From Sistotremastrum niveocremeum HHB9708 (taxonomy: Eukaryota > Basidiomycota > Agaricomycetes > Sistotremastrales > Sistotremastraceae), in NCBI GenBank assembly GCA_001630475.1, contig KV419397.1:937758-1001757 (forward strand): a DNA stretch of 64,000 nt. The letters are read 5' to 3'. Both the position numbers and the translations under genes were made by a program. Shown piece after piece: positions 51,565 through 52,947 of the stretch. The stretch's first letter is position 1. Each line of letters begins with the position of its first letter. The notes beneath the pieces are model-generated. The model saw nothing but the letters and a program-made list of their open reading frames with translations, did no database searches and was not told the DNA's origin.

Positions 51565-52947
51565 TCAAGTATTCATGAAGAACTCGACGGGATCAGGTAT
51601 TTCCTCCGTGCGCTCCATCGTATTTCCTGAAGGCAGATAACGCATCTCGAGTCGTCGAATGATGGGAATTGGATTGGCCTCGTTTTTGACGTGTATTGCC
51701 ACGCGAATGGTGGGGAAGAAATGAGGAAGGGATTCGAAGGCTCTTTCCATAGATTCGTTGTCTATCTCCGGTTCCATTACGCCGTCCACATACGACGTGC
51801 CGAATCCCACGCGTTCGGACATGGCTATTGTTTGTAGTCGAGATAAGCAGCCGGCGATTTCTTCCGCAGGTGATTTCATGAACTCCTGTTAGATGCCAAT
51901 GAACATTAAAATTGAGTGAGCTGCGTCATACGACTTACAATAAATAATTTAGTTGCGCTCAAGCCCTCTAGAGACTCCAGAGCAGGGAAGATCTGAGAGA
52001 TGGCTCTTACTGTGTCAACGTAGAGGGGAATGGGGAGGGAATAGAGGCATAGGTGCTTCAGAAAAAATTAGACCTCCTATTTTGACTCCTGAGCGCTCTG
52101 GAGTACTTTGGAGTACTCAAGAGTCAAAATAGGAGGTCTAATTTTTTCTGAAGTGTGTAACATTCGGGAAGGGGTTGGCTAAGAGCGACAGTTCATTGAT
52201 GAAATCCAGTCGCACCAGCGTTCGCCGAGTTACTTCACACTCGACCGAGGTCAACTCGGGAGCTGAAGCGAGGAGTCCCAGCTGGGAAAAGTTGCCGATA
52301 AAACGCTTCACCTGTGGCAGTGGATTGTATTCCCGGAGGCTGCGCCACTGAATTGGCCTTTCGACAACGAGTCGGACGTCTTCGATACTCGGGTTATTGA
52401 CGAGAAATTCGCCCAGCGAAAGCTGGTCATTCCTTCTTGAACTTTCATCAAAATCGATGTCAACAACTTTGAGGCGTGGGTATTTTAGGTAGGAGAGGTG
52501 AGTTAGGACCGGAACTCTACTGGGATTGAGCATGATCCTGAGATAGCGGAGGTCGGAGGTAAGAGAAAGCAGCTTCATAATGTGAAGGTCGATCTCGGTA
52601 TCCTGCACCGCACGAGTGGAAGGATTCTTGATGTAGATCGTTAGGCATTCAACATATGTGCTGAGCTTAGGCTCGGATTTGGGGCGGGAATACGCGAGGA
52701 TGTGGGACGCGTGGAATATCTGGTCAGACACGGCTTCGATATCACCGTACTTGACGGTGACAAAGTTAAGCTGTGACCACAGAATTGGTGTCACTACGTC
52801 TCTCCATATTCTTGAAACGAAAGAAAGAGATGTAAGAGTTTTGTGTTCGGTTTTCCAGTTTTCGTGCGATTTTTCCTGAAGGCTTTGGCTGTCTGTTTGA
52901 CGGATGAATTTAGCTATACGGCAGCATAGCTCCGGAGGGAGAGCCAT
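51565..52947 (-). pseudogene. F-box-like protein F13, exon 1 interrupted by a fold-back element
   Basis: F-box-like gene: MALPPELCCRIAKFIRQTD, core SLSFVSRIWRDVVTPILWSQL, body with YPRLKVVDIDF and NNPSIEDVRLV. Exon 1 runs 52947-51939 and exon 2 51885-51565 (EFMKSPAEEIAGCLSRLQTI, AFESLPHFFPTIRVAI). A 98-bp palindromic element (52056-52153) plus a 2-bp duplication is inserted in the conserved NPFPNVTHL motif. Without those 100 bp exon 1 is 909 nt and the gene 409 aa, in frame. With them translation ends four codons into the element. Exon 2 downstream is still intact, so the insertion is recent or the element is removed by splicing: GT at the NVT codon and a pyrimidine-rich AG at the element's end would restore the frame minus two residues. 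Confidence 0.75.
52056..52153. mobile_element. 98-bp perfect fold-back (MITE-like) element
   Basis: Two perfect 33-bp inverted arms, 52056-52088 and 52121-52153, begin CTTCAGAAAAAATTAG and end with its complement. A 32-bp centre carries GGAGTACT repeats. Flanked by a 2-bp duplication TG (52054-52055 and 52154-52155). Removing element plus one TG restores a conserved reading frame in F13, which proves it is an insertion. Perfect arms mean it is young. Superfamily unclear. Its end TTTTTTCTGAAG (minus strand) resembles a 3' splice site. Confidence 0.85.

Follow-up and report, generated by a model that had tools for sequence, protein, structure and literature searches.

Among fungal MITEs, those of the Tc1/mariner type target TA and those of the hAT type duplicate 8 bp. 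PlavakaB transposons, in the available part of their published description, are characterized by target-site duplications (TSDs) of 2 or 3 bp and termini of the form CATCA..TGATG (PMC12730594). For introners, the accessible portions of the literature name the Pezizomycotina as the fungal group (PMC9860276; PMC4457414), and in other eukaryotes introners are described that carry their own 3' splice site and borrow the 5' site (PMC9860276). For Plavaka non-autonomous elements or MITEs in basidiomycetes, no such family is evident from titles and the opening lines of abstracts. The end sequence of the element described here had no match in the literature searched, which took in a minority of the subscription papers.

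The element lies in the window, i.e. the whole analysed stretch of 64,000 nucleotides from Sistotremastrum niveocremeum HHB9708 (contig KV419397.1), within the coding sequence of an F-box-like gene that runs on the minus strand from 52947 to 51565 (Table 1). Since the 2-bp duplications match those published for PlavakaB and its ends recur on a Plavaka in this genome that encodes a transposase, it is classified with high confidence as a non-autonomous Plavaka-type MITE (CMC/CACTA-related, PlavakaB-like) that inserted in this F-box-like copy and very probably inactivated it.

Table 1. Features of the interrupted F-box-like gene and its insert (positions in the window).
Feature	Position	Strand	Basis
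98-bp fold-back MITE, very probably of Plavaka type (CTTCAG...CTGAAG)	52056..52153	.	arms, fold, genome copies, C8 ends
33-bp arm	52056..52088	+	first 15 bases recur at either end of the 6,515-bp C8 Plavaka
Other 33-bp arm, perfect inverted copy	52121..52153	-	arm comparison
Core, three 10-bp near-palindromic units (GAGCGCTCTG GAGTACTTTG GAGTACTCAA)	52089..52120	.	
TG target-site duplication	52054..52055	.	sequence
TG target-site duplication	52154..52155	.	sequence
F-box-like exon 1, interrupted (1009 nt including the insert, 909 nt if left out)	51939..52947	-	frame and paralogs
Putative native intron GTAAGT...CAG, 53 nt (or 56 nt)	51886..51938	-	frame
Exon 2, open up to the stop	51565..51885	-	frame reading

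A 98-bp fold-back whose two 33-bp arms are perfect and which is bordered by a duplicated TG, as stated in the original prediction, is confirmed at this position. The pairing of the arms, perfect over 33 nt, can be extended to 43 nt at 93 %, and the RNA fold of the element reaches -65.4 kcal/mol (z -15.3), a value equalled by none of 200 shuffles. No further copy was seen inside the window, either by a search for shared 12-mers or by a search with the end pattern, which returned the two ends of the element and one place with one mismatch (1.1 expected by chance). Such a highly stable stem, present in numerous copies, could suggest that the hairpin, once transcribed, acts as a regulator of the F-box family or as a source for small-RNA silencing. 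However, a MITE with long inverted ends already accounts for the stem, and the copies show no specificity for F-box genes; a role of this kind is considered exceedingly improbable.

When the host frame is read into the element, a stop codon is met in the first arm, and the resulting ORF of 269 aa ends in ...NVTHFRKN*. Joining the flanks without the 98+2 bp gives ...LANPFPNVTHLCLYSLPIPL..., where paralogs read NPFPHVTHLYISS and NPFPSVTHLTFTN, and the joined product NPFPNVTHLCLYSLPIPL agrees with the uninterrupted paralogs. Without the insert, exon 1 as counted on the sequence has 909 nt up to the GTAAGT donor. Two earlier claims therefore hold: the insertion in a conserved motif of an F-box-like gene, as paralogs read through this position uninterrupted, and the restoration of the family frame by removal of 100 bp with exon 2 undamaged, as the frame reading indicates. 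The exon-1 protein matches PF12937 (F-box-like) with an E-value of 2.1e-4, which is under the curated cut-off. It has 33 matches in the genome including itself, 24 of which lie in C4:868730-1012386, and this region and the window contain a large cluster of F-box-like paralogs. Judged from the sequence, the insertion very probably inactivates this copy because it introduces an in-frame stop and a frameshift. We infer that the insertion is recent and that the gene has lost its function.

A genome-wide search for the arm, proposed in the original prediction, showed the sequence to be multicopy. Allowing up to three mismatches, the 22-base arm end was found 81 times in forward and 77 times in reverse orientation in the 34.7-Mb genome, whereas the reversed-pattern control gave 0/0. 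At E <= 0.001, the complete 98-bp query matched at least 41 genomic places (40 of 78 candidates scored), and the first eight places showed 97-100 % identity. Therefore, the repetition is not due to chance. Further end searches gave 32/31 matches for a 128/129-bp family (control 0/1) and 26/31 matches (control 0/0). Among the copies listed, at least 51 are 98 bp long, and the others measure 70, 78, 88, 128 or 129 bp. The 98-bp family is short, non-coding and repeated. In the 128/129-bp family, of which 19 copies were read, 16-bp ends (CTTCAGAAAAAATTAG) are held in common with the 98-bp element.

Several copies stand out by their composition or context. The 128/129-bp MITE family (L087-L105 and L059:1724-1851) has a core of GCTATT repeats that resemble the subterminal motifs of the Plavaka at C8. 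One of its copies (L100:299-943) is split by about 500 bp, from TAGTGTTC to GAACACTA, and this insert is perhaps another transposon; the copy at L017:1501 is interrupted by a similar start. Six loci (L073, L076, L078, L079, L080 and L082) carry one 98-bp insertion with identical flanks close to several contig ends, a context that resembles a duplicated, perhaps subtelomeric, repeat.

Target-site duplications were assessed in 75 two-ended copies from the two families (56, and 19 of the 128/129-bp one), leaving out one-ended copies (such as L071, L072, L081, L083, L085, L090, L106 and L008) and the interrupted L100. A 2-bp duplication was present in 61 of the 75 and only a 3-bp duplication in 2, while 12 had neither. 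With the right flanks shuffled 2000 times, 2-bp duplications averaged 6.2 and did not exceed 14 of 75. All 16 dinucleotides were seen among the 2-bp duplications, TA being the commonest (11). For this reason, a MITE of the TA-targeting Tc1/mariner type or of the hAT type with its 8-bp duplication was rejected. Empty sites were recovered for two insertions: a LINE-type ORF copy (C13:629038-629237) and a Helitron-type copy (C16:566804-567003), which align ungapped over 200 of 200 positions at 84 % and 80 % identity, respectively.

The genome contains 38 matches to the Plavaka domain PF18759, 37 of them above the cut-off, and no match was found in 14 control genomes. An element of 6,515 bp at C8:707362-713876 (L031/L110/L058) is flanked by a TA duplication and has at both termini CTTCAGAAAAAATTA, the first 15 bases of the window element. 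Two of its ORFs match PF18759 (E-values of 1.3e-17 and 9.9e-73), without an internal stop in the matches. It also contains a nested 98-bp MITE copy, and 13 of its 14 AATAGC/TATAGC motifs lie within 400 bp of an end. One end of the 128/129-bp family continues in the same way as the left end of this element (CTTCAGAAAAAATTAGGCCAGGT). A second Plavaka of 6,464 bp (C19:374807-381270; L117/L118) has the ends CATCAGGAAAAT, a TT duplication and a Plavaka match with one internal stop; TGTAGC is repeated near its ends. As to the termini, the window copy has CTTCAG..CTGAAG, copies such as L084 and L094 have CATCAG..CTGATG, and CATCAG ends also occur in L086, while the C8 element has CTTCAG, the C19 element CATCAGG and PlavakaB, as far as its description is available, CATCA (PMC12730594). 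The GAGTACTC core motif of the 98-bp family, and with it a direct parent of this family, was not found in the C8 element or in those portions of the C19 region that were retrieved. For a Plavaka at C40 with its left end at 86346, no right end was found in C40:97000-99500, and a match at C8:986378 turned out to be another 128-bp copy. The claim that a mobile element had inserted in the F-box-like gene is supported by the copy number, the duplications, the empty sites and the transposase-coding element with the same ends.

In the proposed mechanism, a larger element would make the Plavaka transposase, which would recognise CTTCAG/CATCAG-type ends, and the MITE was presumably mobilised by such a transposase. 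It would insert at nearly any 2-bp target, which would then be duplicated. In the window, the target would have been a TG within exon 1 of a single gene from the large F-box-like family, and the in-frame stop and the frameshift very probably leave that copy inactive.

The symmetry of the arms was followed in an alignment of 37 copies of 98 bp, for which mostly non-identical ones were selected (33 distinct). Both-sided changes were present in 12 of 33 arm pairs, 98.3 % of the cells pair, and the arm covariation was 0.191 versus 0.055 in shuffles. Because related sequences easily exceed such shuffles, this covariation shows only that arms are matched within subfamilies. The matched subfamily arms would offer a handle on how palindromic MITEs maintain their symmetry. 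The core differs by whole ten-bp near-palindromic units, with one, two and three of them in the 78-, 88- and 98-bp copies shown. This size ladder comprises L007:1101-1178, L063:1501-1588, L021:750-837 and the window element, and the 70-bp copy at L021:469-538 falls outside it.

The element could alternatively be a new, introner-like spliceosomal intron with an element-borne CTAAT branch point and acceptor (TTTTTTCTGAAG) and a GTTACA donor borrowed from the exon, 8 nt upstream in coding-strand orientation. This reading is rated as very unlikely, even though part of its basis stands. The frame arithmetic holds, as 106 nt would be removed against 100 gained with the loss of Val-Thr, the GT lies at the stated distance, the acceptor-like arm end is present in both orientations, and the host exons are open apart from the insert. 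However, the donor is as weak as the original prediction had assumed, lacking both a purine at +3 and a G at +5. Donors picked in paralogs of the window have these letters in 13 and 12 of 14 cases, respectively, which is illustrative only since the picker favours them. Furthermore, the branch point and the pyrimidine tract are paired within the -65 kcal/mol stem. The acceptor-like end is common to the transposase-coding C8 element, and therefore transposition explains this stretch.

The other copies were compared with random points with respect to frame-keeping donors. Of the 33 exon-like copies, two others, L058 (GTATGT) and L103 (GTATGC), likewise have a frame-keeping GT at -8, but no such GT is constant across the 33, only 11 aa of frame follow the element in L058, and the frequency of a GT at this position (3 of 39 copies) is close to that among random points (4.6 %). 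The mean donor score was 1.18 versus 0.85 at random for 39 copies with frames of at least 100 aa, 1.04 versus 0.85 for 26 copies at 120 aa, 0.83 versus 0.82 for 18 copies at 149 aa, including the window copy, and 0.76 versus 0.83 for 17 copies at 150 aa or more, a cut-off under which L058, L103 and the window copy with its 149 aa fall. Donors scoring at least 4 occurred in 3 of 39 copies versus 2.7 % of random points at the 100-aa cut-off, and in none at 150 aa. The donor excess is thus slight and confined to the cut-offs where coding is least sure. With ORFs as a proxy for genes, frames of at least 150 aa pass through the site in 23 % of 73 copies versus 19 % of 6,259 random same-locus points, and frames of at least 190 aa in 15 % versus 9.5 %. 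The copies lie in open frames at roughly the rate of random points, with a small surplus.

Because of the poor donor, the acceptor-like end that is a transposon end within a stem, and the missing donor excess in strong frames, the introner reading is not supported; the copies have no usable shared donor pattern. Splicing of the window copy is unlikely as predicted from its sequence. Since the ends read CTAAT-TTTTTTC(A/T)G-AAG in either orientation, the Plavaka-type MITE may nevertheless supply a complete 3' splice site at any place of insertion. There is a slim chance that a copy near a chance donor, perhaps GTTACA, is occasionally spliced and becomes an intron; if true, this would be a nascent introner in a fungus that is not a member of the Pezizomycotina.

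The frames interrupted by other copies were searched against Pfam with 20 protein pieces from 19 of the 33 exon-like copies. A name was obtained for 8 of the 19 copies, and 12 pieces had no match (4 of 10 and 8 of 10 in two batches). The interrupted frames encode an endonuclease-reverse transcriptase (L033), reverse transcriptases (L044, L057), a Helitron-like protein (L064) and a NACHT protein (L066); integrase (L070) and F-box matches (L097, window copy) were below the Pfam cut-off. In these named cases, i.e. transposons, NACHT and F-box, the tolerance of insertions requires no splicing. The L006 ORF has 8 additional matches in the genome. The L065 ORF is single-copy and has no Pfam name; therefore, the hosts are not all repeats, and the element may simply have broken a gene there.

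A would-be introner is now read as a transposon insertion, and a 98-bp palindromic MITE family, together with a 128-bp one, is tied to Plavaka elements. The element, best read as a MITE of Plavaka type that interrupts an F-box-like gene, is of an ordinary kind. Like fungal MITEs of the Tc1/mariner or hAT type, it is short, has inverted ends and carries no genes, but it differs from them in its 2-bp duplication with all 16 dinucleotides. As far as the available parts of the introner literature go (PMC9860276; PMC4457414), introners are likewise short, repeated and located in coding sequence, some with TIRs, TSDs and one splice site, whereas this MITE lacks a usable donor pattern and is not confined to open frames. 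With PlavakaB of the CMCT clade, as described in the accessible part of the source (PMC12730594), the family shares 2- or 3-bp duplications. Its ends are of the CATCAG/CTTCAG type, compared with CATCA..TGATG in PlavakaB, and such ends also occur on the C8 and C19 elements with Plavaka transposase matches. The window copy differs from PlavakaB in a T instead of an A at position 2 and, in contrast to PlavakaB transposons, measures 98 bp, has no coding capacity and is almost wholly palindromic.
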